DNA from: Acidobacteriota bacterium
GTDB lineage: Bacteria; Acidobacteriota; Terriglobia; Terriglobales; Acidobacteriaceae
Reading direction: 5' to 3'
NCBI GenBank assembly: GCA_021780315.1
Contig: JAJXYY010000033.1
Coordinates: forward strand, 124,001 to 188,000
Length of the DNA stretch: 64,000 nucleotides
Below are positions 4,459 through 56,106 of this stretch, in pieces. Below the pieces are notes generated by a model, which did no database searches, had not been told where the DNA came from, and worked only from the letters and a program-made list of their open reading frames with translations. Both the position numbers and the translations under genes were made by a program. Each line of letters opens with the position of its first letter. Position 1 is the stretch's first letter.

Positions 4459-5634
4459 TCAGGGTGTGGCGTTGGGGAGGTCGAGTAGCTTTTGGTAGAG
4501 CTGGGTGGTGTGGGTCATCATGGCGTGGATGGTGAACTTCTGGAGGACCAGTTCCCTGCCGGCGGCTCCCATGCGGCTGCGGGTGGCGGGGTCTTCGAGG
4601 AGGCGCAGGATGGCGGTGGCGAGAGCGTGGGGATCTTCGGGAGGGACGATGAGGCCGCTGTGGCCGTGCTGGACGGCTTCGGCGTTGCCTCCGACGTTGG
4701 TTGCGACGACGGGGAGGGAGGCGGCCATGGCTTCGATGATGGCGTTGGAGAAGCCTTCGCTGCGGGAGGGGAGGACGAAGAGGTGGGCGGTGGTGAGGTG
4801 GTTGCGGAGGTTGGTGACTCCGCCAAGGAAGTGGACGTGGTGGGTGAGGTTGAGCTGCTGGATGAGTTCGAGGAGGTGGGCGTAGTAGTCGGGCTCGAGG
4901 ATTTCGCCGGCGATGGTGAAGCGGGTGTCGGGGTGGCGCTGGACGATGAGGCTGGCGGCGCGGAGGAAGACATCGTGGCCTTTAACGTGGCGGATGTTGC
5001 CGAGGGTGGTGATGTGGAAGGGCTGGGCGGGTGGTGGGGTGGGGGTGGTCCAGTCGGCGAGGTTGAGGCCGTTGTAGATGGTGGTGACGCGGTCGGGATG
5101 GATTCCGTCGGTGTCGATGGAGTACTGGCGGACGAGCTCGGAGACGGCGAGGACGTGGTCGGGGAGGTTGGCGAGGAGGCGGTAGGCGAGGTGGTGCTTG
5201 GGGGCGCGGAGGATGCCCATGTCGCGGCGGCTCCAGATGAGCCTGGCGGGGGAGGTGAGCTTGACGACGAGGCCGGCCCAGAGGTCGGAGCTCTCGAAGA
5301 AGGTTTGGACGATCTGGACGCTTTGGGCCTTGAGGAAGCGACGGAGTTCAAGGGCGGCGTGGAAGGCGTTGCGATCGTAGGTGCTGGTGAGCGGCAGTTC
5401 GTAGACGGGGCAGGTGGCGGCGGCGAGGAAGGGGCTGGATGGATGTGCGAAGAAGGTGAGAACGGAGACACGGAACCCGTACTGGGGCAGAAGCGCGGCC
5501 AGCTTGAGAACGATGCGCTCGCCGCCGCCGAGGGTTCTGGAGACCTGGTCGAGGACAAGGAGGACGTGGGGGAGTGCTGCTGGGTCGGACGGGCTGGGAG
5601 CCTGAGGGGGCGATAACAAGGTGAGTTTGCTCAT
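4459..5634 (-). CDS. GT4-family glycosyltransferase
   Basis: 391 residues, usual length for a GT-B retaining glycosyltransferase. The N-terminal domain has GGGER (36-40), the acceptor-side glycine-rich loop. The C-terminal Glycos_transf_1 domain (about 205-380) has LGNIRHVKGHD, the E-x7-E motif EGFSNAIIE (293-301) and NVGGNAEAV. It would add a sugar to the lipid-linked repeat unit on the cytoplasmic side of the inner membrane. It is the last of three genes on this strand (7059-8171, 5661-7013, 4459-5634), with about 26 bases between it and the ligase gene, consistent with one transcript. Donor and acceptor cannot be predicted. Confidence 0.9.
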   Translation of the reverse strand: MSKLTLLSPPQAPSPSDPAALPHVLLVLDQVSRTLGGGERIVLKLAALLPQYGFRVSVLTFFAHPSSPFLAAATCPVYELPLTSTYDRNAFHAALELRRFLKAQSVQIVQTFFESSDLWAGLVVKLTSPARLIWSRRDMGILRAPKHHLAYRLLANLPDHVLAVSELVRQYSIDTDGIHPDRVTTIYNGLNLADWTTPTPPPAQPFHITTLGNIRHVKGHDVFLRAASLIVQRHPDTRFTIAGEILEPDYYAHLLELIQQLNLTHHVHFLGGVTNLRNHLTTAHLFVLPSRSEGFSNAIIEAMAASLPVVATNVGGNAEAVQHGHSGLIVPPEDPHALATAILRLLEDPATRSRMGAAGRELVLQKFTIHAMMTHTTQLYQKLLDLPNATP

Positions 5635-5660
5635 AAGGATTTGCGGAGTGCGAGTGAGTG

Positions 5661-7013
5661 TTAGCGGTAGGCGAGAAACGGGTTGACGTCGGCAGCTTGA
5701 TGGGGGAGGCTGTCGCTGGGGAGTTGCGGGGTGGTACCCGATGATTCATCCGCGAGATAGACGGCACGGGTGGCGGCGCCCATCAAGGCCCAAAGCAGGC
5801 CATTGATCTCGAGGTAGGTCCAGCGATCGCCGAAGAAGGTGAGGATGAGGTTGGAGAAGACGGTAAGGAACAAGGCGAGACCCAGGCCGCGGTAGAGCGG
5901 GTCGTTACCGCGGCGGAACAGGCCGTAGGTGAGAGCGAGCATCTGCTGGATAAGGAAGAGCGCGATGATGCCACCGATGATGCCGGTCTCGGTGAGGACT
6001 TTGACGTACCAGTTGTGGGTGTCTTTGAGTCTGTCGACGTGTTCACCAAACTGGAAGGTCGCGTAGCCAGTGCCGAAGATGGGGTTGTGGAAGAAGGTGG
6101 TCTTTGCGTTCTCCCAAAGGTCGACTCGTTCCTGAGCGGAGGCCTCCAACTGGCCATTGGAGTTTTGCGTCATGGTGACGCGTTCGGTAACGGCGGTTGG
6201 AACGAGTGCTTGCCAGGTGAAGAGAAAGATAATGACGACGGGGATTAGCTTGCGATCTTTGAGGATGCCAAGGAGAAACGTAGCCAGGACAAGCGAGATA
6301 TAGGCCGCTCGCGAAAAGGTGTACATGGTGGCAAAGGCAGTGATGGCAGTGAGGACGTAGCAGAGGATGCGGTAGCGGCCCTTCTTGAGGAACTGCGCGA
6401 AGCCCCAGAAGAACATGGAGAACTGAGCCAGAAAGGCGGCAAGGCCGTTGGAGCCTGCCCAGCCGAGCGGACCGCCGTCGCGCTTGCTCTCGTCGAAGTG
6501 GGCGAAGGAGTGAGACAGACTACTTTGGAGCGAACTCTTGTCGATTGCGAGTAGAGCGATCGCGGTGATGATGATGAGGGTTCGTATATCCTTGCGGGTC
6601 TCCATGGTCAGCCCGGCGGCGACGAAGACCAGGGGGATAAGCATGTAGTCTTTCCAGGTTGCGAAGTTGAGCACGTTCACCCAGAGTGGGGCTGGCGCGT
6701 TGCCCATGACGAAGCCGAACCACATGGAGAAGTAGAGGTAGACCCCGAAGACCAGCCAGATGGTATAGAGCTTGGATTTGGGAAGATGCTTGCCGTGAAT
6801 GAGTGCCCCGATGATGATGGACGCGACGAGGATGGTGGTGACATTGCCGCCCAAGGGGTAGTCGAGAAAGTGATCGCGCAGGGTGCGATAGGGCAGCAAG
6901 GGGACAAGGAAGAAAAAGGTAAGGCGCGGCCGTCCACCTAAGGCAAGAAGGCACATGACCCAGCAACCCAGGTAAGCGACCAGCGGAATGTAATGACCAA
7001 TACCTGTTCCCAC
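5661..7013 (-). CDS. O-antigen ligase / Wzy-type polymerase family membrane protein
   Basis: 450 residues with about ten or more hydrophobic helices. A large loop after residue 270 ends in the Wzy_C-like segment GTGYATFQFG...DTHNWYVKVLTETG. Such proteins polymerise or ligate undecaprenyl-linked oligosaccharides at the periplasmic face. In this locus, with a flippase, a Wzz-like protein and no lipid A core genes, polymerase for an exopolysaccharide is the better guess than LPS ligase. The start chosen is the codon at 7013; the next gene upstream ends at 7059. Confidence 0.85.
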   Translation of the reverse strand: MGTGIGHYIPLVAYLGCWVMCLLALGGRPRLTFFFLVPLLPYRTLRDHFLDYPLGGNVTTILVASIIIGALIHGKHLPKSKLYTIWLVFGVYLYFSMWFGFVMGNAPAPLWVNVLNFATWKDYMLIPLVFVAAGLTMETRKDIRTLIIITAIALLAIDKSSLQSSLSHSFAHFDESKRDGGPLGWAGSNGLAAFLAQFSMFFWGFAQFLKKGRYRILCYVLTAITAFATMYTFSRAAYISLVLATFLLGILKDRKLIPVVIIFLFTWQALVPTAVTERVTMTQNSNGQLEASAQERVDLWENAKTTFFHNPIFGTGYATFQFGEHVDRLKDTHNWYVKVLTETGIIGGIIALFLIQQMLALTYGLFRRGNDPLYRGLGLALFLTVFSNLILTFFGDRWTYLEINGLLWALMGAATRAVYLADESSGTTPQLPSDSLPHQAADVNPFLAYR

Positions 7014-7058
7014 GTTGATGACTCCGAAGTACGAGTGCTGCGAGCGACGAATTGCGAA

Positions 7059-8171
7059 CTACTGAATCCAGACTCGTTTGCGGCCTATGACGAAATTGTA
7101 GAACGCGAGGGCCGCGGCGGTGTTCAGCATCACGAAGGTGTTTGCGATCGCGATAGGTTTGAAGCGAGTGAGTGAAGGTCGGAGAGTACCGAAAGCGGCA
7201 AGGAGATAGAAGGCGACCTGCAGGAGGAAGACAGCCTGATAGAAGATGCCTCCGGCCAGTGCGGAGGCTACCAGCATGAGGATGAGCAGAGCGGGGACGA
7301 GGAGGCGAAGGAGTTTGTGGCTGACGAAGCGGAAGAGCAGCGGATTGGCTGGCGTAAGTAGCCAGGGAGCCAGTCGAAGCAGTTGGTAGTTGCCGGTGAG
7401 GGTTCTGACTTTGCGGGAAAACTCTTTGCCTTTTTCGCTGAAGAGCTGGTCACGGGCGATGGCTGCGGGATGAAAGACGACGCGATGGCCTGTACGGGCG
7501 ACGTGCATGGGAACGAAGAGATCGTCGAGGATGGTGCCGGGGGGGATGGGGGTGTAGAGTTCCCTGCGGATGGCGTAGATGGCACCGGTGACACCGACGA
7601 CGGAGCCAGAGGCGGACTCCAACTTGCGGACGATTTTTTCGATCTTCCAGTAGATTCCCAAGGCGGTGCTGGCGACGTTTCCTGTGGCGTCGGCGAGGAG
7701 GAGTTCGCCGCTCACTGCGCCGATAATGGGATCTGCGAAGCAACTTACGAGTTCTGCCACGGCGTTCGAATCGACGGACTGACGTGCGTCGAGGAAGACC
7801 AGGATGCTTCCGGAAGATGCGGCGACTGCGGCATTGAGAGCAGATGCTTTGCCCTGCGACTGGTCGAGGAGGACTGGAAGGATGAAGGGTTGGTTTTGGC
7901 GGAGGAGGTCGGGTGTGCTGTCGGTTGAACCGTCGGAGGCGATGACGACTTGAATCTGTTCGAGCGGGTAGTTGAAAGAGCGGAGATTCAGGATTTTTGC
8001 AGCTAGATTGGTTTGTTCATTGCGAGCAGCGATGATGATTGAGACCGTTGGGGTGGATGGGCGGGTTGGAAACGGCCGGGGGAACAGGCGCACGTAGAGT
8101 GAAAGCCAGAGGGCGTATCCGAAGTAGGCGTAGGCGATGAAGGCCAGACAGAGCCAGAAGGTCAGGACCAT
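7059..8171 (-). CDS. Membrane-associated GT2-family glycosyltransferase
   Basis: 370 residues. An N-terminal membrane helix (about 1-22) precedes a GT-A domain with VSIIIAARNE, ASDGSTDST and FLDARQS, the last being a D-A-R variant of the usual DXD metal site. GAIYAIRRE and the acidic ILDDLFVP follow. Three or four C-terminal hydrophobic helices (about 275-360) resemble processive or membrane-embedded GT2 enzymes such as EpsF/HAS-like proteins. It is the first gene of the minus-strand run; the probable promoter is within 8172-8653. Substrate unknown. Confidence 0.85.
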   Translation of the reverse strand: MVLTFWLCLAFIAYAYFGYALWLSLYVRLFPRPFPTRPSTPTVSIIIAARNEQTNLAAKILNLRSFNYPLEQIQVVIASDGSTDSTPDLLRQNQPFILPVLLDQSQGKASALNAAVAASSGSILVFLDARQSVDSNAVAELVSCFADPIIGAVSGELLLADATGNVASTALGIYWKIEKIVRKLESASGSVVGVTGAIYAIRRELYTPIPPGTILDDLFVPMHVARTGHRVVFHPAAIARDQLFSEKGKEFSRKVRTLTGNYQLLRLAPWLLTPANPLLFRFVSHKLLRLLVPALLILMLVASALAGGIFYQAVFLLQVAFYLLAAFGTLRPSLTRFKPIAIANTFVMLNTAAALAFYNFVIGRKRVWIQ

Positions 8172-8653
8172 GGGCTACTCATCGACCTGCGAATAATGGC
8201 AATTGTTGTTGCTCATGACGGGGGTTGCTGGCTGTGAGATGCAGGGATGGGACATTTGGTGGTGCGAGTAGAGGTGGATGTCCATCGATAACTCCCTGTC
8301 CGAGAAGTTGTGGTTCGGCGATAGCTGTTGATTGCGACCTCAGTCTGGTAGTGGTGAGGGCCGACTCCATGCTGCCGTGATTGCCCGGATAGAACTCTGT
8401 GGCCGCAACGGTATGAGACTATTATGCCTGTTGCGGGTGGGGATGTACGTGGCACCAAGGTGTTAGCTGAACACGGGCTAAGCGTGCGATACACTGACAC
8501 CGGCCTGAGGAACGGCATCCTATCCGCGTAGTACCGATACGCTACCTTATGCTGTTGTGGCTTGATGCGTTGACTTGCGCATGATTGCGGTCATCGGAGC
8601 TATGACAGCGCAACAGAAACGACGTTCCGTATGACGATGATGGAGACCTAACT
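8172..8653. other. Divergent intergenic region of the glycosyltransferase and flippase genes
   Basis: 482 bases with no credible coding sequence. It must hold promoters for both directions. A small palindrome, GTGTT-5-AACAC at 8460-8474, is the only symmetrical site I see; its meaning is unknown. Confidence 0.4.
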
Positions 8654-29287: not shown

Positions 29288-29959
29288 TTAGTTGGGGATA
29301 AAGCGCGGCAGAAATGGGGCCATCTGGCTGGTGAACTGAACGACCCGCTGGCGGGCATCGTCTACGCTTTCGGTTTGGAAGACGGGGGTGATGACGCGGA
29401 CGATGGCACCATCGGTGCGATTGAGGCGGATGGCGTCGGTGATCATGTGGATTTTGGCGGAGTACTCGTTGGCGATGCTGCGGCCGTGGGCCTGATACCA
29501 GTAGAGGACGAACTGGCGGTTGGCTCCGTTGCTGATGAGGTACTCGCCGACGAGATAGACCTTGCCATCGGCTGCGGTGAGGTGGGTGTAGCGTTTGGAC
29601 TCGAAGGTCCAACCTGCACCGGGGAGGCAGTTTTGGGGGGAGTGGATGGACTGGCCTGTGCGCTGGGAGGCGAAGTAGCCGATGAAGAGGCTGATGGGTG
29701 CGGATGATCCCGGGGTGGGGCTGGCGGTGGTGCTGACGGGGGCGGGAGTATAGATGCGGTTGAGGAAGTCTCCCTTGCCGAGGATGGCGAGGACATCATC
29801 CTGCATGGGGAGGTCTTTGGCGGTCCAGACGCCGATGGTTTCGGGCATCTGGCTGAGGGGCTCGCTGGGGGGTACGTTGTCGCGATCTCCGCGGGTGTGG
29901 AGCAGGATGGCGGTCACGATGAGAAGGAAGACTACTGTCCAGTAGCGGGGGTATTTCAT
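29288..29959 (-). CDS. epsI: EpsI-family protein of the exosortase system
   Basis: 223 residues with one N-terminal membrane helix (about 8-22) and a periplasmic domain. The hallmark SPQNCLPGAGW, FIGYF before it, and FVLYWYQAHGR after it identify the EpsI family (DUF3485), which is often fused or adjacent to exosortases. Its molecular role is not fully known; it is required for exopolysaccharide production in Methylobacillus. Two bases separate it from the exosortase gene, so the two are one transcript. Confidence 0.92.
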   Translation of the reverse strand: MKYPRYWTVVFLLIVTAILLHTRGDRDNVPPSEPLSQMPETIGVWTAKDLPMQDDVLAILGKGDFLNRIYTPAPVSTTASPTPGSSAPISLFIGYFASQRTGQSIHSPQNCLPGAGWTFESKRYTHLTAADGKVYLVGEYLISNGANRQFVLYWYQAHGRSIANEYSAKIHMITDAIRLNRTDGAIVRVITPVFQTESVDDARQRVVQFTSQMAPFLPRFIPN

Positions 29960-29961
29960 GG

Positions 29962-30924
29962 TTAGCCGATCTCCTGAGCCGGAGGCAGTTTGGCATCGGC
30001 GGATTTTGGTGGTGCGATGAGGCGCATGAGTCGGTGCAAGAGGTAGAGGCAGGTGAGGGAGATGACGAACATGACCCAGCCGGAGAACTCATGGAAGAAG
30101 CCGAGGGCTTTGTCGGGGTCCCAGTACTGGACACATAGGCCGGTGCCTACGATGCGGGCGGCGTTGGCGGCGACGGCGATGGGGATGCTGGCGAGCGCGA
30201 GGATGACGCGGCGGCGGGTTCCTCGCTCGAGGAAGTAGCCGTAGAAGACGGCGAGGGTGAAGAGGCTCATGAGCGAGCGGATGCCGCTGCAGGCCTCGGC
30301 TACTTCGAGCTTCATGACGGGGAGTTCGAGGACATTGCCCTCGTTGAGGACGGGCACGCCGAGCAGCGGCAGGATGCTGCTGGCGACGTGGGAGGCGAGC
30401 AACTGGAGGGGAAAGGTGATCTGGTTGAAGACGATGGCAGGGAACGGAATGGCGAGCAACAGAATAAAGAGCGGGAAGCGGAGAGCCTTGAGCATCGTTC
30501 GACCGAAGAACGTCCAGAGGATGCCGGAGAGGAGGATAAGAAAGGAGATGCGGGAGAGGAAGAGATCGGCGCCGTAGACGCCGAGGATGAGGATGGCCAG
30601 ACCGAGGAGGACGAGGGAGATGCCGCTCCAGGATGGCTTGATGGGGGTGTTGCGGATGGTGTCCCGTCCGTCCCAGAGGACGAAGAGCGCGAAGAATGGG
30701 ACGAGAAATCCGTGGGAGTAGTCGGGGAGATCGTACCAGTCGAAGACGAGTTTAGCTGCGACCTTATAGTAGACGGCGGCGAGGAGGAGGGCGATGAGGA
30801 GATAGGGGAGCCAAGGCCTGGCGGTCGTGAGGGCTGGCGAGGTGGCGGATGGTGAGGCGGACTGGGGAACTTGCGGCTCAGTCTGAGCACTGCCGACCAT
30901 CGGAGTAGAGGGGTTATACTTCAC
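29962..30924 (-). CDS. xrtA: Exosortase (XrtA/EpsH family)
   Basis: 320 residues, about eight membrane helices. The catalytic triad motifs are all present: EACSGIRSL (Cys), NAARIVGTG (Arg) and FHEFSGW (His). Exosortases cleave PEP-CTERM sorting signals in the inner membrane, the bacterial analogue of sortase. A GTG at 30922-30924 with AGGTGA upstream is the likely start. A candidate substrate lies in the window at 54834-55568. The gene is divergent from the export operon at 31369 and followed at once by epsI. Confidence 0.95.
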   Translation of the reverse strand: MKYNPSTPMVGSAQTEPQVPQSASPSATSPALTTARPWLPYLLIALLLAAVYYKVAAKLVFDWYDLPDYSHGFLVPFFALFVLWDGRDTIRNTPIKPSWSGISLVLLGLAILILGVYGADLFLSRISFLILLSGILWTFFGRTMLKALRFPLFILLLAIPFPAIVFNQITFPLQLLASHVASSILPLLGVPVLNEGNVLELPVMKLEVAEACSGIRSLMSLFTLAVFYGYFLERGTRRRVILALASIPIAVAANAARIVGTGLCVQYWDPDKALGFFHEFSGWVMFVISLTCLYLLHRLMRLIAPPKSADAKLPPAQEIG

Positions 30925-47203: not shown

Positions 47204-50200
47204 TTAGAAGGAGAGTTTGATGGCGGCCTGGAGGAGGCGGGGTGGGGCTGCGCTGTTGATCTGTCCGAAGGCAGTGCTGTTGACGTCTCCGTTGACGGCG
47301 GTGGAGCCGTAGAACTGGGCGTGGTTGAAGGCGTTGAAGGCTTCGATGCGGAACTCGACGAAGCTGGACTCTTTGAGGCGGAGGTATTTCTGGAGGGCGA
47401 AGTCGAAGTTGTCGATGCCAGGGCCATAGAAGGAGCGGCGGGAGGCGTTGCCGGGCTGGCCGAGGGGCTGGAGGGTGAAGCGTGCGGTGTTGAAGTAGGG
47501 TAGGCCGTTGCGGGGGTTGTGGTTGAGGTTGAGGGGTACGGGTTGGACCTGGGGGAGGTCTACGCCGAAGGGGTTGACGCCGTCGGGCTGGGTGCCGAGG
47601 AGAGAGTTGTCGCTGCTGTTGGTGAGGGTGACGGGGAAGCCGGTGCTGAAGCGGGTGATGCCGGAGAGGACCCAGCCCTCGGTGAGGCGGTTACGGGTGC
47701 GGGTGAGGCGGTCGAAGGGGACCTGGAGGGTGTAGCTGGCGATGAAGCTGTGGGTGACGTCAAAGGCGGAGAGGGCGTAGGTCTGGTGGTAGTTGAAGGG
47801 ATTGAGTTGGTCGGAGATGCTGGAGGCGAGGTCGAGGGATTTGGAGTAGGTGTAGCCGAGGAGGATCTGGGCGGGTGCGCTGACGTGGCGGAGGGTGACG
47901 TTGAGGGAATTGTAGTTGGAGTTACCGATGGTGGTGAGGTAGTCGACGCTACCGAAGTTGCCACCGAAGGGTGCGCGGGTGCCCTGGATGGTTTGTCCGG
48001 CGGCGGAGGTGTAGGTGTTGGTCTCTCCGAAGGGGCCGCAGGTGGCGGAGCCGGGGGCGACCTGGGACTGCTGGCTGAGGCTGAGACAGAGGGCAGGGTT
48101 GCCGGGGTTGGCTTCGAGGAGAACGAGCAGGTGGTGGGCCTGGCTGCCGATGTAGTTGATGCTGAGGACGGTGTCGGGGTCGAGTTGCCGCTGGTAGGAG
48201 AGGTTGTACTGCTCGGCGTAGGGGCTGACGTTGTTGGGGGCGTAGCCGGGGAGTCCGGTGATGGGGAGGAAGGGAGCCCAGTTGACGTTGGGGTTGGGGT
48301 GGGCGGCGGAGGCGTTGAGCGGGGGGAAGTGGAGCGGGAAGCGCTGCTGGTTGTTCTGTCCGGTGGCGGCGGTGACGAAGGGGTTGGTGAAGAGGGGTGG
48401 GGCGGGGCTGGTGTAGGTGCTGCCGTAGGGGGCGTCGCCGGCCATGACGCCGGCGGAGATACCTTCTACGGCGGAGAAGAAGCGCCCGAAGCCGAGGCGG
48501 AGGCTGGACTGGCCATGATCTCCGGTAAGGAGACCGAGGAGGCCGCGGTGGGTGCCGGGGGTGTAGGCGAGGCCGAGGCGCGGGGAGAGGTTGTTCCAGC
48601 GGGTGGGGGCGAGGGAGCGGGCGATGCCTGGGTCTCCGGGGAAGACGAGGCCGGTGGGTGCACCGGGGAAGACGATGGATTGCTGGCCGGGGACGAGGGT
48701 CTGGATCTGGTTGAATTTTTCGTACCAGGGCATGGCGACGTCCCAGCGGAGGCCGTAGTTGAAGGTGAGGTTGGGGTGTAGGCGCCAACTGTCCTGGACG
48801 AAGAGTGCGCCGTAGCGGTTGCGCATGTAGAAGGGCTGGGCGTCGCCCTGGGTGTAGCGGCTGGGGGTGCCGATGAGGAAGTCGGCGAAGTCGGAGCCGG
48901 TCTCGGAGCCGAAGAAGGAGAAGGTTCCGTTGGACTGGACGTTGGCGTTGGCGTTGACCTGGTTGAAGAGGAGTTCGCCGCCGAGTTTGACGATGTGAGA
49001 GCCGAGGACGCGGGAGAAGTTGTTGGAGAGCTGGAAGACGTTATCTACCTGGTTGAGACCGGTGATGGTGGAGCCGAGGATGAAGTTGTTGAAGATGACG
49101 TTTTCGACGCCTTCGATGGCGGGACGCTGGGGGAGGATGCTGGGTTGTCCGTCGGCGGTGACGAAGCCCTGGGAGACGAGCGAGGTGCCGACACCACCGA
49201 TGGGGCTGCCGAGGATGTTGACGTCGCGCATGTAGGAGAACTGGAGCTGGTTGACGGTGCGGGCGTTGAAGGTGGTGGTGCCGACGAGGTTGAGGAGCTG
49301 GGCGCGACCGTGGTTGAGGGCGTTGAAGCCGGGGACGCTGGCACCTCCCTGCTGGGTGGGGTAGGGATTGTTGAGGGCGTAGTCGTCGAGGGAGTAGTAG
49401 GCGGAGAGGTTAACCCAGGGGGTATTGGCGTCGAGGCGGAGCGCACCTTTGTCGTCGAGCAGGGTCTGGTTTTGCGCGGAGGTGGCGAAGGCCCCGCCAG
49501 GCAGGTTGGGGGCGGGGATGTACTGGAGGAGATGCTGTGCGGGGGTGGAGAAGGCACGCTGGGGGATGGCGGCGTTGGGAAAGACGCACTGGGTGGGGAG
49601 GGTGCAGCCGGGGGTGTAGTAGGGCTCCTCGGCGGTGACGGGGTAGCCGAGGCGCTGGGCGAGCTGGGCGGCCCAGAAGGGGCCGGAGACGTTGCCGGTG
49701 AGTACGGGCCCGTTGAGGAAGTTGCCGGCACGGTTGTCGCGGGAGGGGACGGGGATCTGTCCGCTGTCGACTCCCTGGGTCATGCGGGTTCCCTGGTAGT
49801 CGGCGAAGAAGAAGAGGTGGTCGTTGTGTTGGGTGACGCGGAAGGGATTGCGAACGGGGCCGCCGAGGGTGGCGCCGAACTGGTTTTGCTGGAAGGTAGC
49901 GCGCTCGGGGGAGTAGAAGTTGCGGGCGTCGAGGGCGGTGTTGCGGAAGAACTCGAAGGCGGTGCCGTGGAGGCGGCTGGAGCCGGAGCGCGTGACGACG
50001 CTGATCTGTCCGCCGCTGTAGTTTCCGTACTCGGCGTCGACGTTGCTGGTGAGGATACGGAACTCTGCGATGGAGTCGAGGTTGGGGATGATGGCTGCGC
50101 CCATGGTGAAGGGTTCGCCGACGGTGGCTCCGTTGATGGTGAAGCCGTTGGCGAACTCGCGCTGGCCGTTGATGGAGATAGTGCCGGGGTTGAGGTTGCC

Positions 50201-50797
50201 GGAGGGAGAGATGGTGCTGGCCCCGGCTGCGGTAAGGGAGCCGGCGGTGAAGGTGGTGGCGGGGGCGATGCCGGGCTGGAGGGCGAGGAGATCGGTGAAG
50301 CTGCGTCCGTTAAGGGGGACGGAGGTGGCTTCGAAGTTTTCGATGACTTCGCCGAGCTGGGTGTCGGCGGTCTGGACGCGGACGTTGGAGGAGGAGATGG
50401 TGATGGTTTCGGTGCGGACGCCGAGGACGAGGGCGACATCGAGGAGGAGCTGGCTGCCGGCGTCGAGGAGGATGTTGGTCTGGTCGAATTTTTTGAAGCC
50501 GGGGGCTTCGACGGTGAGGGTGTAGGAGCCGATGGGGAGCTCGCGGAAGGAGTAGACGCCGTGAGTGTCGGTGAGGGCGGATTGTCTGAGGTTGGTGCTG
50601 CTGTGGAGGGCGGTGACGCGGGCGGCGACGACGAGTGCGCCGTGGGGATCGGTGACGGTGCCGGAGATGCTGCCGCCTACGCTGGCTGAGGCACTGATGG
50701 TGAGCAGGAGGAGCAGCAACAGCGGCGGCCACAGGGAAGATTGGACGAGACGGAGCCAGGTGGAGGCTCGATACCTTGAGTTGGTCGAGTTGCTCAT
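47204..50797 (-). CDS. TonB-dependent receptor-like outer-membrane protein (Oar type)
   Basis: 1197 residues. Signal peptide, then a carboxypeptidase-regulatory-like beta-sandwich (about 40-130: GSISGTVTDPHGALVVAARV, GVYSFRELPIGSYTLTVEAPGF), a plug domain (about 135-260: VPLNGRSFTDLLALQPG, INGQREFANGFTINGA) and a long beta-barrel ending in Phe (AAIKLSF). Such receptors are very numerous in Acidobacteriota and are thought to import oligosaccharides or other large nutrients. AGGAGG lies about eight bases before the ATG. It starts 31 bases after the stop of the 50829 gene, suggesting one transcript. Confidence 0.92.
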   Translation of the reverse strand: MSNSTNSRYRASTWLRLVQSSLWPPLLLLLLLTISASASVGGSISGTVTDPHGALVVAARVTALHSSTNLRQSALTDTHGVYSFRELPIGSYTLTVEAPGFKKFDQTNILLDAGSQLLLDVALVLGVRTETITISSSNVRVQTADTQLGEVIENFEATSVPLNGRSFTDLLALQPGIAPATTFTAGSLTAAGASTISPSGNLNPGTISINGQREFANGFTINGATVGEPFTMGAAIIPNLDSIAEFRILTSNVDAEYGNYSGGQISVVTRSGSSRLHGTAFEFFRNTALDARNFYSPERATFQQNQFGATLGGPVRNPFRVTQHNDHLFFFADYQGTRMTQGVDSGQIPVPSRDNRAGNFLNGPVLTGNVSGPFWAAQLAQRLGYPVTAEEPYYTPGCTLPTQCVFPNAAIPQRAFSTPAQHLLQYIPAPNLPGGAFATSAQNQTLLDDKGALRLDANTPWVNLSAYYSLDDYALNNPYPTQQGGASVPGFNALNHGRAQLLNLVGTTTFNARTVNQLQFSYMRDVNILGSPIGGVGTSLVSQGFVTADGQPSILPQRPAIEGVENVIFNNFILGSTITGLNQVDNVFQLSNNFSRVLGSHIVKLGGELLFNQVNANANVQSNGTFSFFGSETGSDFADFLIGTPSRYTQGDAQPFYMRNRYGALFVQDSWRLHPNLTFNYGLRWDVAMPWYEKFNQIQTLVPGQQSIVFPGAPTGLVFPGDPGIARSLAPTRWNNLSPRLGLAYTPGTHRGLLGLLTGDHGQSSLRLGFGRFFSAVEGISAGVMAGDAPYGSTYTSPAPPLFTNPFVTAATGQNNQQRFPLHFPPLNASAAHPNPNVNWAPFLPITGLPGYAPNNVSPYAEQYNLSYQRQLDPDTVLSINYIGSQAHHLLVLLEANPGNPALCLSLSQQSQVAPGSATCGPFGETNTYTSAAGQTIQGTRAPFGGNFGSVDYLTTIGNSNYNSLNVTLRHVSAPAQILLGYTYSKSLDLASSISDQLNPFNYHQTYALSAFDVTHSFIASYTLQVPFDRLTRTRNRLTEGWVLSGITRFSTGFPVTLTNSSDNSLLGTQPDGVNPFGVDLPQVQPVPLNLNHNPRNGLPYFNTARFTLQPLGQPGNASRRSFYGPGIDNFDFALQKYLRLKESSFVEFRIEAFNAFNHAQFYGSTAVNGDVNSTAFGQINSAAPPRLLQAAIKLSF

Positions 50798-50828
50798 GGA
50801 TCGGCCTCCTGGGCGATTGGGCGGGTTG

Positions 50829-52595
50829 CTAGCGGCGGGACTCTGCTGCCTGCGTGGTGGGCAGGTTGGTGTCGAGGAGCGCGGGCTTGAAGGTCCAGGT
50901 GGCTCCGGCGTCTTCGAGAGAGCGGGTTTTGGGGAAGATGCTGGCGGTGGCGGAGGTCATGTAGGTCATGCGGACGCGGAGTTTGCTGTCAGGGATGGGA
51001 TTGACGAGGGCCTGGGACATGAGGCGGAGGAACTGCGCGGCGTTGATGGGGATGCCATCGATGCGGACGAAGCTGGGTATGACGTTGGTGGGCAGGTGGT
51101 CGTGGATGGAGGTGTCGTGGAGGCCGGGTTGGAGGTCGGCACATTGTCTGGCGATGGAGGCGATGGAGACATCGCCGATGTTGGGGCCGTGACCGCCGAC
51201 CATTCCGATGGGGCCGTAGACGGAGGCGACCTGAACGGAGGCGGGGAGGGAGCCGGTGCGGTGGAAGCTGGCGAGCGCGTCGGTGGCGACCTGGAACCAC
51301 TCGGCGAGGGAGAGGTAGTGGCCGTCGGCGAAGAGGTAGGCGGGGGGATAGGTGTCGTTGCCCCACTGGGTGAGGGTATCGGTGAGGGCGGCGCGTAGGG
51401 CGGCGGTGGAGATGGCGTAGCCGGTGCTACGGGTGGCCATGCGGCGGAGATCGGAGCTGGAGACGAAGCGGCTGTTGGGGTTGGCGGGGAAGAAATCGGA
51501 GGTGAGCCAGGTGAGGAGAGCAGCTTCGGTGGCGTAGGCGGCGTTAACCTGATCGGGCTGACGGCGCGCGTCTGGGGGTAGCTGAGGGGTGTTGGGATGG
51601 GTGTAGGCGTAGCTGAGCGAGGGGGAGCGGGAGGCTTTGGCGAAGTCTGGCTGGAGGTAGTCTTTTTCGCTGGCGAGTTCGACGTGGAGGATACGGATTC
51701 TGGAGCGGTCCATTTTGGTAGTGATGTCCTGAAGGGCGGTTGCTCCTTCGTAGGCGCGGACGGCGCGGACGGCGGGGCCACCGGACTCGGAGGAGCGGAG
51801 GACGTTGTCTGCCCAGTAGAGTTCGGGGGAGGAGTCGGGGACGGGGCTCATGAGTTGTCCGATACCCATGACGGAGCCGTTGAAGCCGGGGACGTTGGCG
51901 GGGTTTGCGGCGGGGATGCCGAAGAGGATGGCCTGGGTGTTGAAGCGGCGGAGGAGGGGGACGACCTCCCAGTCGCCGATCTCGGGGGTGACGTTGGGGG
52001 TGTCTCCGACGCCTGGCTGGCGAGGGGTGAGGACTGCCTGATGGTTGAGATCACCGACGCTGACGCCGGTGATGCAGGCTGCCTGGCCGAAGACGTGTTG
52101 CATTTCGGCGAGGCCGCCGAGGATACCGGGTTTGAGTTCGCCGGTGAGGGGGTCGCGGGCCTGAGTCAGGAATTTTTCACTGGCGGTGGAGCGGATTTGC
52201 CAGCGGGCCTGTGGGGTCTGGGTGTTGGAGAGGTCGGCGAGGGGACGGTTCTGGTAGGTGGGTTCGTCGGTGCCGTCGTAGCCTACTTCGATGATGCCGC
52301 GTTTTTTGTAGGCGAGGACGAGGTCTTTGATGCCGGTGGTGGGGTTGCGCTGGTCGAGGGCCTGACTGACGGCTCCGGAGAAGAGGATGGTGGCGGAGAC
52401 GTGGGCTTGCGGATGGTCGGCGCGGTAGTGCTCGATCATGGGAAGGACGCGGCGGATGCGGTCTTCGGTGACGTCGAGGTTAACGTGATCGGTGATGCGG
52501 GCGTAGAGGTAGATGTAGACGGGTTGGGTGGCCGGAGTGGCCCAGAGGCGAACAGAGGAAGCAAGCATCAGCAAGCAAAGGACGAAGCGTTTCAT
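50829..52595 (-). CDS. Secreted protein of unknown function
   Basis: 588 residues with a signal peptide (about 1-19, ending LWA). The first 200 residues begin VYIYLYARITDHVNLDVTEDRIRRVLPMIEHY and include ATILFSGAVSQAL and IEVGYDGTDEPTYQNRP, which looks like a beta/alpha fold of the polysaccharide-deacetylase or GH57 kind. The usual TFDDG and HxxxH motifs are missing. I do not recognise the family. It lies between a fused PEP-CTERM/PKD protein and a TonB-dependent receptor on the same strand, which suggests a periplasmic role in handling a polymer, but this is inference. Confidence 0.65.
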   Translation of the reverse strand: MKRFVLCLLMLASSVRLWATPATQPVYIYLYARITDHVNLDVTEDRIRRVLPMIEHYRADHPQAHVSATILFSGAVSQALDQRNPTTGIKDLVLAYKKRGIIEVGYDGTDEPTYQNRPLADLSNTQTPQARWQIRSTASEKFLTQARDPLTGELKPGILGGLAEMQHVFGQAACITGVSVGDLNHQAVLTPRQPGVGDTPNVTPEIGDWEVVPLLRRFNTQAILFGIPAANPANVPGFNGSVMGIGQLMSPVPDSSPELYWADNVLRSSESGGPAVRAVRAYEGATALQDITTKMDRSRIRILHVELASEKDYLQPDFAKASRSPSLSYAYTHPNTPQLPPDARRQPDQVNAAYATEAALLTWLTSDFFPANPNSRFVSSSDLRRMATRSTGYAISTAALRAALTDTLTQWGNDTYPPAYLFADGHYLSLAEWFQVATDALASFHRTGSLPASVQVASVYGPIGMVGGHGPNIGDVSIASIARQCADLQPGLHDTSIHDHLPTNVIPSFVRIDGIPINAAQFLRLMSQALVNPIPDSKLRVRMTYMTSATASIFPKTRSLEDAGATWTFKPALLDTNLPTTQAAESRR

Positions 52596-52709: not shown

Positions 52710-55568
52710 CTACCGGCCAGCGGGTACGGCGACGGCCGCCTGATTGGACTGACAGACCTCGGCGCCGGTCGCGTTGACGGGTTGGAGGACGTAGTAGTAG
52801 GTGTGGAGGTTGAGCAGGCCGGTCCGGTCGGAGTAGGCGGAGACGGTGGTGGTGCCTACCTGGGTATACGGGCCGCCGTTGGTGTTGGAGCGGAGAACGT
52901 TATAGCCGGTGACGTTGGGGATGCCAGTCCAGGTGAGATCGATACGAGCGGGCTGGAGTGGGGTGCTGGGGGTTCCGCGACCGCCGAGGTTGTTGACGCA
53001 GGCGACGAACACGGTACGTTTCAGCATGATGAGGGACCATGCGGTCTCGTAGGGAAATTGTGAGCCGGAGTAGTTGTCTCCGGACCAATAACCGGCGGCA
53101 CTCTGCCGACCGACGATGGTTTGAGCGATGCCGTCGCAGGGATCGCTGCCACCGTTGGCTGCGGAGAGTGCGCTGTACCAGTCGATGGTGTTGGCGGGTA
53201 CGGTGTTGTTGCCGGTAAAGACGCCGGGGGTCTGGGTGCGGAGGTAGGTGATGGGAGTAAGGCTACCTGCAGGGTTGTGGAGCAGCATGGCCTTGGTGAA
53301 AGAGAACATGCCGTAGGTGTAGGCGCGCGGGGCGTTGAAGGCACCGCTGGTTGGGTTGTTGCAGAAGTTATCAGCGTAGTAGGTTTCTGCGTTATTCCAA
53401 CGTTGATCGGGGTCGGTGGAGGCATCTCCGAAGGCGACGTTCTGGGTACGGCCTACGCTATCCATGGCCATCTGGACCATTCCGGATGGGGTGACGGCGA
53501 AGGAGCCCCAGGCGTCGGAGTAGTTGAGCGCTCCGTTATAGCCGAAGGCACCATAGTCCATACCGGTAGCCCAGGGGTTGGTTCCGGTGGGCTTGGTGGT
53601 GATGACTACGTCCTGACTATTGGTGACCCAGACGTTGTTAGCGTCGGTGACCATGGGCGGGATGGGGACTGCGAAGCCACGATCGGCACCGATGAGTCCG
53701 ATGGCAGACCACTGGGAGACGGAGTTGTCGTCACCGGCCTGACAGTTGTACCACCAGCCGCCGCCCTCGTAGGGAGAGGCTCCGCGGGTGTAGCCGTCGG
53801 TGTAGTCGTGGGCGAAGTTGTACTGGCAGTAGGCGATGCCGTCAGCCATATCCTGAACGATATTTTTGTAGGTGAGGCCTGAGACGCCTGAGCCGCCGGT
53901 AGTGGCGACTGCGTTGGGAGTGCCGCTGGCTACGATGGCATCGATGTACTGACCGCCCTCGTACATGGGATAGGCCTGAGGGGCGAGGATGTAGTGGCCG
54001 TTGGCGTTGGAGTCGAAGGTAAAGCTACATGGCGGGGTGGAGCAGGAGGTGGCTGCTGGGTTGTAGAAGACCTTGGTTGCGGGCAAGGTGCAGGGTGGTG
54101 CCGAGCCGTCGCTGCAACCGAAGGTGACGAGCGCCGGGTTGTAGTTGTAGGTCTTGGCCGAAGTGTTATAGCTGCTGAGGCGGGTAAACATCTGGTTGAG
54201 CCCCAGTTGGACATCGCTGGTGTAGGGGTCGGTTGCTGGTCCGGCGGCGGTGTGTCCGTTGACTTCGAAGGCCTGGACGTTGGCTGCGGTGATGGAGCCG
54301 TAGCCGCTGCAATCGAAGCTATAGCCGGGGTAGCAGCTATCCCAGTTACCGGCGGTGGCAGAGGGGTGCGACATGCTGGCGTGCATGTACCAGAGGCCGA
54401 GATCGATGGCGACGTTGACGCGCGAGGAGAGGTTGTTGGGCTCCCAGATGACGAGGTAGTTTCCGGTAGCCTGCTCGTGGGTGATGGTATCGATGACGGT
54501 GACGACAGCGGTCCAGGTCTGGCCGATGGTGGTACCGGCGTAGATGTGGCGTGCGGCAATGTTATTGGGATTGGTGACGGCAGCGGCGGCGGTAGTGTTG
54601 CCATCGCCGAAGTTCCAGGCGTAGGTGAAGGGATCGCTGGAGCCCTGGAGGTTGGTGGTGGCGCCGAGGACGATGTTGGCACCGGAGTATGCGGTGTGGG
54701 GTGCAGCGGGGTTGGCGGGATCCCACGGCACGGTGCTGACGGTGGGGGTGGCGGCACGGGCTACGGGCACGAGAAGGAATGCGGCGGCGCAGGCGACGAG
54801 GCCGAGATATTTTTTACTGGAGGGGATGCTCATCCGCTTGCGGAGTTGGGTGAGGCCAGCGCCGATGCCGGTGGCGAGCAGTGCCCAGGTGCTGGGTTCA
54901 GGGACGGACGGCGGTGGTGGTGGCGGTGGTCCGCTGCCGGCAGGCTCGGTGACTACAGATCCAGAGAAGAAGATGTCGGACTGGTTGGGGTTGGCGGCGT
55001 CGGTGGGGTGGGTCTGATCGAGGTAGAAGCCGCTGGTTGGCTGGGTGGTGCCGAAGGTGAGGGTGATGAGTTCCTGCTGGTTGGAGCCGAGGGTGAAGGC
55101 AAAGCCCATGGCCATGGTGGCATCGCCGTTGCAGTTGGCGGCGTTGCAGGAGCCAAGGAAGTTGTCATTGCCCTGAGGGAGGTAGTTGGTGTTGGAGAGG
55201 GCATTGTTCTGGGTGTCGGCGTAGATGCTGGAGGCGTAGTTGTCGCCAATCTCCCAGGACTGGCCTGCGGGGGGGGATCCGGAGGCGGTGCCGTATTCGT
55301 TGTAGTAGGGGATGCCGATGTCGTGGTTGACCCAGGCGTCGAAGAAGGCGGAGCCCGTGGTGCCGGGGTTGTAGGTGTAGACGAGGGTGCCGAGTCCGGT
55401 GGAGGGGTTGAAGCCGGAGGTGTTGAAGTTGGGGTCGGAGAAGTCCGAGGATTGGGTTCCGTTGACGTTGAAGAGAACACCCTGGAGGACGGGGTCGGCG
55501 AGCGAAGTTCTGGCGGTGAAGGTCCAGAGCAAGCAGAGTGCACTGAGGGACAGCAGTAGTTTTTTCAT
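52710..55568 (-). CDS. PEP-CTERM exosortase substrate fused in frame to a second secreted PKD/toroid/FN3 protein
   Basis: The start is the ATG at 55568 (AGGGAG upstream, signal peptide MKKLLLSLSALC...SLADP); the longer open frame to 55739 has no signal and is unlikely. The product is 952 residues. Residues 1-245: secreted beta-rich domain, polyproline, then a complete PEP-CTERM signal VPEPSTWALLATGIGAGL ending QLRKR. With no stop codon, residue 246 is Met (54833), followed by a second signal-like stretch SIPSSKKYLGLVAC...PVARAA. A PKD-like domain (YAWNFGDGNT), a helical region with QW-like motifs (GYWSGDNYSGSQFPYETAWSL) that resembles prenyltransferase/terpene-cyclase toroids, and a C-terminal FN3 domain (IDLTWTGIPNVTGYNVLRS) follow. 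It may be a polyprotein or a recent fusion of two genes. Confidence 0.85.
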   Translation of the reverse strand: MKKLLLSLSALCLLWTFTARTSLADPVLQGVLFNVNGTQSSDFSDPNFNTSGFNPSTGLGTLVYTYNPGTTGSAFFDAWVNHDIGIPYYNEYGTASGSPPAGQSWEIGDNYASSIYADTQNNALSNTNYLPQGNDNFLGSCNAANCNGDATMAMGFAFTLGSNQQELITLTFGTTQPTSGFYLDQTHPTDAANPNQSDIFFSGSVVTEPAGSGPPPPPPPSVPEPSTWALLATGIGAGLTQLRKRMSIPSSKKYLGLVACAAAFLLVPVARAATPTVSTVPWDPANPAAPHTAYSGANIVLGATTNLQGSSDPFTYAWNFGDGNTTAAAAVTNPNNIAARHIYAGTTIGQTWTAVVTVIDTITHEQATGNYLVIWEPNNLSSRVNVAIDLGLWYMHASMSHPSATAGNWDSCYPGYSFDCSGYGSITAANVQAFEVNGHTAAGPATDPYTSDVQLGLNQMFTRLSSYNTSAKTYNYNPALVTFGCSDGSAPPCTLPATKVFYNPAATSCSTPPCSFTFDSNANGHYILAPQAYPMYEGGQYIDAIVASGTPNAVATTGGSGVSGLTYKNIVQDMADGIAYCQYNFAHDYTDGYTRGASPYEGGGWWYNCQAGDDNSVSQWSAIGLIGADRGFAVPIPPMVTDANNVWVTNSQDVVITTKPTGTNPWATGMDYGAFGYNGALNYSDAWGSFAVTPSGMVQMAMDSVGRTQNVAFGDASTDPDQRWNNAETYYADNFCNNPTSGAFNAPRAYTYGMFSFTKAMLLHNPAGSLTPITYLRTQTPGVFTGNNTVPANTIDWYSALSAANGGSDPCDGIAQTIVGRQSAAGYWSGDNYSGSQFPYETAWSLIMLKRTVFVACVNNLGGRGTPSTPLQPARIDLTWTGIPNVTGYNVLRSNTNGGPYTQVGTTTVSAYSDRTGLLNLHTYYYVLQPVNATGAEVCQSNQAAVAVPAGR
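54834..54903 (-). other. PEP-CTERM sorting signal (internal)
   Basis: Codes for VPEPSTWALLATGIGAGLTQ and LRKR: a PEP motif, a hydrophobic helix, then a basic cluster. This is the tripartite signal cut by exosortases such as the one at 29962. It would normally lie at the extreme C-terminus; here another 706 residues follow. Confidence 0.9.
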
Positions 55569-56106
55569 AGGGACTCCCTGGCGGTGGGCCAGCGTGGTGG
55601 TGAGAGGTGTGGGCCAGAGGCGGTGGATCGGGCCGGGAATGGGAGGAGGCATGAGGGAAGTGGTGCGGGTGCGTGGCGAGTTGCGGGAGTGCGTGGTGCT
55701 CATACATCCTCCATTGGCGAGCCAAAATGGAATATGCACGTCCGGACGGTGCTGGAGAGCACTGCGACCGAAGACGTGAGTGGGACGATAGAACGAGCCG
55801 CCTAAGCGGAGCCCGGATGAGGCACTGGCAATAACTGGGGATAAGGGGCCTGGTGATAACCCAAGGGGACGTTGCCCTGACTGCTTACAACTGAGAGAGT
55901 CGGGTAACGCAAGGTGATGAGCATTCTTACTGCCAAAGATGGGGACGGATAAATAGCAGCAGAATCAGTGCGCATGTGGTGGCAGCTGGATAGGAAGATG
56001 CAAAGTGCTGCGGGGCAAGATGGAAAATATCGCCACATTGCCGGGTGTGAGCGGGAAGTGCAGGGGGATTGGATGTAGGCTGGCAGGGAGATTCGGGAGG
56101 ACATTG
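55569..56106. promoter_or_regulatory. Divergent intergenic region
   Basis: 538 bases between the fused PEP-CTERM gene and the lactate permease gene. No supported gene or repeat. It should hold the promoters of both. Confidence 0.4.

Follow-up and report, generated by a model that had tools for sequence, protein, structure and literature searches.

The fbcH cytochrome b/c1 precursor of Bradyrhizobium is a bacterial polyprotein with an internal signal peptide that is cleaved. Viral polyproteins of the flavivirus type likewise contain signal peptides in their interior and are cut by signal peptidase within a single product, but they use other machinery and carry no sortase-type tag. Substrates of the PEP-CTERM/exosortase system (EpsH, Xrt) have an N-terminal signal peptide, a PEP motif, a helix, and a basic cluster, and Haft 2006 (PMC1569441) places PEP-CTERM near the C-terminus virtually without exception; very few PEP-CTERM proteins are described there with long tails, and those may be non-functional. 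A precedent for a PEP-CTERM polyprotein was not found in the open-licence literature. In the portions of that literature available, nothing on topic was found for PEP-CTERM gene fusions, the precedents for internal signal peptides and polyproteins were mainly viral and engineering work, and no work on fbcH was found among the matches listed.

The window analyzed here, a stretch of 64,000 nucleotides from an Acidobacteriota genome, contains a gene that resembles each of these systems in part. As in the fbcH precursor, there is one translation product with an internal signal sequence that signal peptidase could cut; the part upstream of it is a membrane protein in fbcH, whereas the upstream part in the window is secreted and carries at its C-terminus a sorting tag for a second protease. 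With the exosortase substrates, the product shares the N-terminal signal peptide, the PEP motif, the helix, and the basic cluster, and both exosortase and EpsI are encoded in the genome, but the tag lies inside the protein, with a second signal peptide and about 680 more residues behind it (compared with PMC1569441).

Architecture of the fused reading frame

The reverse strand of the window encodes a single open frame of 952 amino acids (52710-55568), read from the ATG at 55568 to the stop codon at 52710-52712. It comprises, in this order, a signal peptide, a beta domain, a proline linker, PEP-CTERM, a second signal peptide, PKD, an alpha/alpha-toroid, and FN3 (Table 1), and no stop codon separates the first half (A) from the second (B). 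The single frame with an internal PEP-CTERM and a second signal peptide behind it, as proposed in the preliminary description, thus runs through all 952 residues without interruption, and the fusion is confirmed as real at the level of the sequence, with an unusual protein architecture. The shifted frame noted there was found as well: the next frame reads ...ASG and stops at the TGA within ATGA at 54830-54833.

The signal peptide of half A has a hydrophobic segment, identified from the sequence and a segment scan rather than by a signal-peptide predictor. Half B begins in frame as MSIPSSKKYLGLVACAAAFLLVPVARA/ATPTV. The internal segment has a basic n-region and an AxA site (SSKK...LLVPVARA/A in the window, AHA in the second fused protein, that of Aquabacterium humicola), and in both proteins no other segment is as hydrophobic as its helix. 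Codon phase is identical in A and B (GC3 0.84 and 0.79, respectively), and the conserved residues of B are kept in the window protein according to the alignment with separate B genes.

Table 1. Positions of the fused gene's elements and of the associated genes in the window
Feature	Position	Strand	Basis
Shine-Dalgarno of the fused gene	55574..55579	-	By eye; duplex energy -7.5
First signal peptide (half A), MKKLLLSLSALCLLWTFTARTSLA	55497..55568	-	Sequence, hydrophobic segment; cleavage site inferred
Beta-rich domain of half A and start of proline linker	54930..55496	-	Homologous to 14 other B-adjacent A proteins (tag removed); beta strands in low-confidence model
Internal PEP-CTERM (PEP, helix, RKR), PEPSTWALLATGIGAGLTQLRKR	54834..54902	-	TIGR02595 above cut-off; helix hydropathy 1.21
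Loop after RKR, MSIPSSKK, holding former B start ATG 54833	54810..54833	-	Sequence; no Shine-Dalgarno in front
Second, internal signal peptide (half B), ends ARA	54753..54833	-	Aligns with signal peptides at the N-terminus of separate B genes
PKD domain of half B, limits approximate	54444..54752	-	Pfam PKD_4 below cut-off; homologues; model
Alpha/alpha-toroid domain of half B, limits approximate	52992..54437	-	Predicted model, fold comparison
FN3 domain of half B, limits approximate	52713..52991	-	Foldseek to 3mpc (Fn3-like), 32% identity
Gene C	50829..52595	-	Signal-like N-terminus; no Pfam/NCBIfam match; kept beside B in relatives
Outer-membrane beta-barrel protein, open frame (CarboxypepD_reg + OMP_b-brl_4)	47207..50956	-	Domain matches; putative start
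Exosortase	29962..30924	-	TIGR02602, 192 bits, cut-off 105.55
EpsI-type exosortase partner	29288..29959	-	TIGR02914, 119.6 bits, cut-off 42.8

The PKD domain of the window protein scored 23.4 bits against PF18911, below the cut-off of 27, and 19 of 20 homologues matched at E <= 0.1. PKD, toroid, and FN3 are all seen in the predicted structure of mature B (mean pLDDT 78). The modeled toroid resembled squalene-hopene cyclase 2sqc (Z 24.0, rmsd 3.5, 299 aligned) and chains of complement and alpha-2-macroglobulin (Z about 14-17). This predicted likeness is one of common fold, not of function: cyclases, glycoside hydrolases, and complement/alpha-2-macroglobulin domains all have this fold, and no enzyme activity is therefore claimed for the toroid. 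The 22 PDB sequences matched by a B profile at E <= 0.1 are all relatives of PKD or FN3. The model of the full-length protein (mean pLDDT 56) gave poor matches in the fold search and was used for the helix break alone.

The A-B pair lies in a conserved neighborhood (47207-52595 on the reverse strand of the window; also L159, L163, L067, L068, and other loci). Gene C was found in 10 of 21 loci including the window, and a barrel gene with CarboxypepD_reg in nine of 21 (the one in the window is a weak case with 27% identity), many loci being too short to tell. The two neighbors hint at the binding or uptake of some polymer.

The PEP-CTERM tag and its exosortase

The tag of the window protein scored 20.6 bits against TIGR02595 (cut-off 16) and 19.6 bits against Pfam PF07589, slightly below the cut-off of 20.7. 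PEP motif, helix, and basic cluster are all present, the helix being weak, and 707 residues come after the basic cluster, which means that the tag is not located at the extreme C-terminus. The genome-wide search with TIGR02595 at E <= 1 gave 20 matches, 15 of which were readable as real C-terminal tags; four (L128, L140, L142, L143) were left uncounted, one lying antisense to gene C and three being unparsed by the script. All 15 readable tags are terminal, with the stop codon 26-27 residues past the start of PEP, and the window protein is the one match among those counted that runs on past its tag. The hydropathy of its PEP-CTERM helix (1.21) is the lowest of the 16 compared, the readable tags elsewhere in this genome lying at 1.55-2.71, and, unlike both signal peptides, the helix did not reach the threshold of the segment scan. 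Given this low hydropathy, the window helix may insert poorly into the membrane or be a poor exosortase substrate. The tag helix of the A. humicola protein has a normal hydropathy of 2.03.

The exosortase gene that had been located at 29962 is recognized by TIGR02602, and the EpsI gene lies within the window, too. Just outside the window (G000:C34:122321-123387), two near-identical PEP-CTERM tails (VPEPSTLMMLGTGLLGSAGA[LI]FRRMRS) were found approximately 1 kb apart, perhaps as the result of a tandem duplication.

Relatives of the two halves and origin of the fusions

In partly overlapping samples of 396, 399, 162, 15, 250, and 399 genomes, 15 A-B pairs were found, 13 of them as two genes and two fused (window and A. 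humicola; the separate pairs are those of G113, G331, G295, G904, G895, G169, G1514, G1280, G1524 with two, G1481, G1251, and G1529). The A homologues immediately precede B on the same strand, and after removal of the tag each of the 15 A proteins matched another at an E-value of 5.5e-22 or lower. The separate pairs (G1280, G1481, G1524, G113, and others) have homologous halves in the same order and on the same strand as the fused gene, but consist of two genes, each with its own stop codon, ribosome-binding site, and start codon. Weak or distant B matches (G052, G251, G888, G913, G929, G935, G662, and rows covering PKD or FN3 only) were not counted as pairs. Also outside this set are L062, L063, L064, L162, and L167, where B occurs without a homologous A, and L166, which is cut by a contig end. 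The PEP-CTERM gene before B in L062 and L167 did not match A without its tag (best E 0.27 and 0.83, respectively), and in L063, L064, and L162, B has no preceding PEP-CTERM gene. PEP-CTERM genes upstream of or near B lie at 5226-5879 in L062, 5178-5870 in L167, and 2493-3179 in L077; in L167, the PEP-CTERM gene and B share one frame with a single stop codon in between. In G1524, two similar A-B-C loci (L160, L161) are present on two contigs, with A 88% identical and the exact ATGA overlap in both.

The alignment of homologues from related genomes, which the preliminary description had proposed as a check, was carried out and showed the fusion in two of the 15 pairs, in one genome each; no close relative keeping either fusion was seen among these pairs. 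Relatives with separate genes, which together with a lack of fused cases had been named as evidence against the polyprotein, do predominate (13 of 15), but a fused case exists in A. humicola. A general family trait was rejected on the basis of the separate pairs. Relatives of B that carry a signal peptide of their own are spread over several families of the window's phylum; the named collection adds those of a Gammaproteobacteria MAG, a Verrucomicrobia MAG, a MAG designated 'bacterium', and A. humicola, the last one fused. No A-B gene was found in 61 other genomes of the window's genus; 13 of these had matches, but each was limited to FN3, to the PEP-CTERM, or to a short piece of PKD. In viral contigs, 499 pattern matches yielded no B relatives, and the search of plasmids with the whole protein gave one record, a 12% match across the FN3 part.

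The second fused gene, in A. humicola (RefSeq NZ_JARGNB010000001.1, locus L065), is a frame of 1035 amino acids (5275-8379, ...APEPASAALVTLGVLALCWSRRRRVLAIAAGAASALFALTAHAAAPVVKTV...). At its junction, SRRRR/VLAIAAG, the stop codon, the spacer, and the start codon are gone, and one RRRR run both closes the PEP-CTERM and opens the signal peptide. The other 249 genomes of the family sample contained no B relatives at E <= 1e-15, and in the order sample (399 genomes) the search found A. humicola itself, a distant B in G662 (E 2e-22), and weak matches in seven genomes. Gene C and the barrel gene are both absent beside this fusion. Since no such relatives of B were found in the family sample and these neighbors are missing, the A. 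humicola gene was probably acquired. In the open-licence literature, the species appeared only in a list of names.

In a tree of the 15 pairs (1052 columns), the window groups with the unfused G1280 and G1481 (support 100/100), and A. humicola falls into another clade together with the unfused G113, G904, G295, G331, and G895 (99.9/99), although the branches adjoining it are poorly supported. A single origin of both fusions was rejected with these pairs, a joint clade costing 326.5 log units (AU p 4.9e-49); in a smaller, earlier tree of eight pairs, it was not yet rejected (AU p 0.148). Because the two fusions belong to different clades and a common fused clade is rejected, the phylogeny indicates that the A-B fusion arose twice, independently. 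The best explanation of the sequence comparisons is that A and B represent an old pair of neighboring genes, which would have been fused in frame in the window and separately in A. humicola.

The window keeps the old ATG of B (54833), which is in line with the start of the separate B genes in the alignment. Duplex energies with what we take to be the anti-Shine-Dalgarno sequence were -3.2 to -11.6 for 14 separate B genes (the 13 separate pairs and L062), with 13 of the 14 at -6.1 or better; for ATG 54833, the value is +0.7, that is, no Shine-Dalgarno, and 49 of 56 internal ATGs match or beat it. In the window, B has thus lost its own ribosome-binding signal, which either decayed after the fusion or indicates that the fusion came from loss of the spacer. 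The preliminary description had put forward an ancestral ATGA overlap and an indel as the origin. In both G1524 pairs, A stop and B start overlap exactly in ATGA and a strong Shine-Dalgarno lies within A (-10.0 and -9.5), and the distance from PEP to the junction is 23 residues in the window as in the G1524 proteins; the two relatives nearest to the window (G1280, G1481), however, have A-B gaps of 61 and 114 nt and no overlap. With the overlap in G1524 and the TGA at a like ATGA in the next frame of the window, an origin by overlap and small indel is plausible as a hypothesis.

Processing of the fused product and alternative explanations

We prefer the reading, which we consider slightly more probable than not, that the fused product is a membrane-hairpin polyprotein that is cut by signal peptidase, freeing B, and by exosortase, processing A. 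The single chain would be exported with half A translocated first, and the PEP-CTERM helix would halt the transfer. Basic loops stay in the cytoplasm according to the positive-inside rule; by this rule, the Arg/Lys-rich loop (RKR...SSKK, or RRRR in A. humicola) would remain cytoplasmic, and the two helices would form a hairpin. The former signal peptide of B would re-enter the membrane as the second hairpin helix, leaving both A and B outside. Signal peptidase I would then cut after ARA and release B with the same mature start as from a separate gene, and exosortase would process A at PEP. We infer this topology, both cuts, and equal amounts of the two products from the arrangement of the signals. 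Both fusions retain the helix after PEP, the basic cluster, the second hydrophobic segment, and the AxA site, and the low-confidence full-length model has two helices (residues 227-245 and 251-269) interrupted at the loop (246-250). The exosortase and EpsI genes in the window and the loss of B's own initiation signals fit this reading; the low hydropathy of the window tag helix, the doubt in PMC1569441 about tags with long tails, and the restriction of the fusion to two of 15 pairs speak against it.

A real but only partly processed fusion is unlikely in our estimation. Signal peptidase would free B, while exosortase would refuse a tag that precedes another helix, so that A would stay on an inner-membrane hairpin; or no cuts would be made and B would be tethered to A. 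The otherwise terminal position of PEP-CTERM, both in PMC1569441 and in 15 of 15 readable tags of this genome, points in this direction, as does the weak helix of the window tag, but neither fusion has lost the PEP motif, the helix, or the basic cluster, and the A. humicola helix is of normal hydropathy. We judge even less probable that the fusion in the window is a one-base sequencing or assembly error in a separate, overlapping A-B pair. The genome is a draft in 47 contigs, a shift by one base places a TGA inside the ATG, and exact ATGA overlaps occur in both G1524 pairs; these overlaps, however, have a strong Shine-Dalgarno that the window lacks, which argues against a simple error since a single error in such a pair would not yield the window sequence. 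Moreover, the nearest relatives have gaps instead of overlaps, and A. humicola shows that such a fusion is possible. A one-base error cannot account for the independently fused homologue there, and an artifact confined to the window was rejected as an account of the whole phenomenon.

It is very unlikely that a recent accidental fusion, functionless as such, is heading to decay. The occurrence in two single genomes among 15 pairs, the lack of an A-B gene in the 61 other genomes of the window's genus (13 with partial matches), and the weak tag helix in the window would be in accordance with decay, but both halves are open across 952 and 1035 amino acids, respectively, and the conserved B residues, both signal elements, and the codon phase are all intact. 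Hardly to be expected is a separate production of B from an internal start codon, namely ATG 54833 in the window or a GTG in A. humicola. The former coincides with the start position of B genes, and the latter, in frame at L065 5914, reaches a duplex energy of -5.8; yet ATG 54833 has neither a Shine-Dalgarno nor a preceding stop codon for re-initiation, and no in-frame ATG was found in the stretch scanned around the A. humicola junction.

Beyond the polyprotein proposed for these two genes, we tentatively suggest, with less confidence, a more general principle: exosortase and signal peptidase may both act on one chain in which an internal PEP-CTERM stop-transfer is followed by a signal peptide, so that gene fusion could yield a self-sorting polyprotein with a fixed 1:1 output. 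The reason for a recurrence of such fusions may be that the basic residues closing a PEP-CTERM and those opening a signal peptide can replace each other; in A. humicola, one RRRR run serves as both. Half B and its conserved neighbors form a putative set of secreted proteins without a family name in the libraries searched, which merits a study of its own. PEP-CTERM is regarded as a terminal tag, and the two separate fusions with an internal tag provide a natural way of testing whether a free C-terminus is required by exosortase. They also test in what manner a sorting signal made for the C-terminus can be joined to an export signal made for the N-terminus, and show a simple evolutionary path by which a gene pair may become a polyprotein in bacteria.
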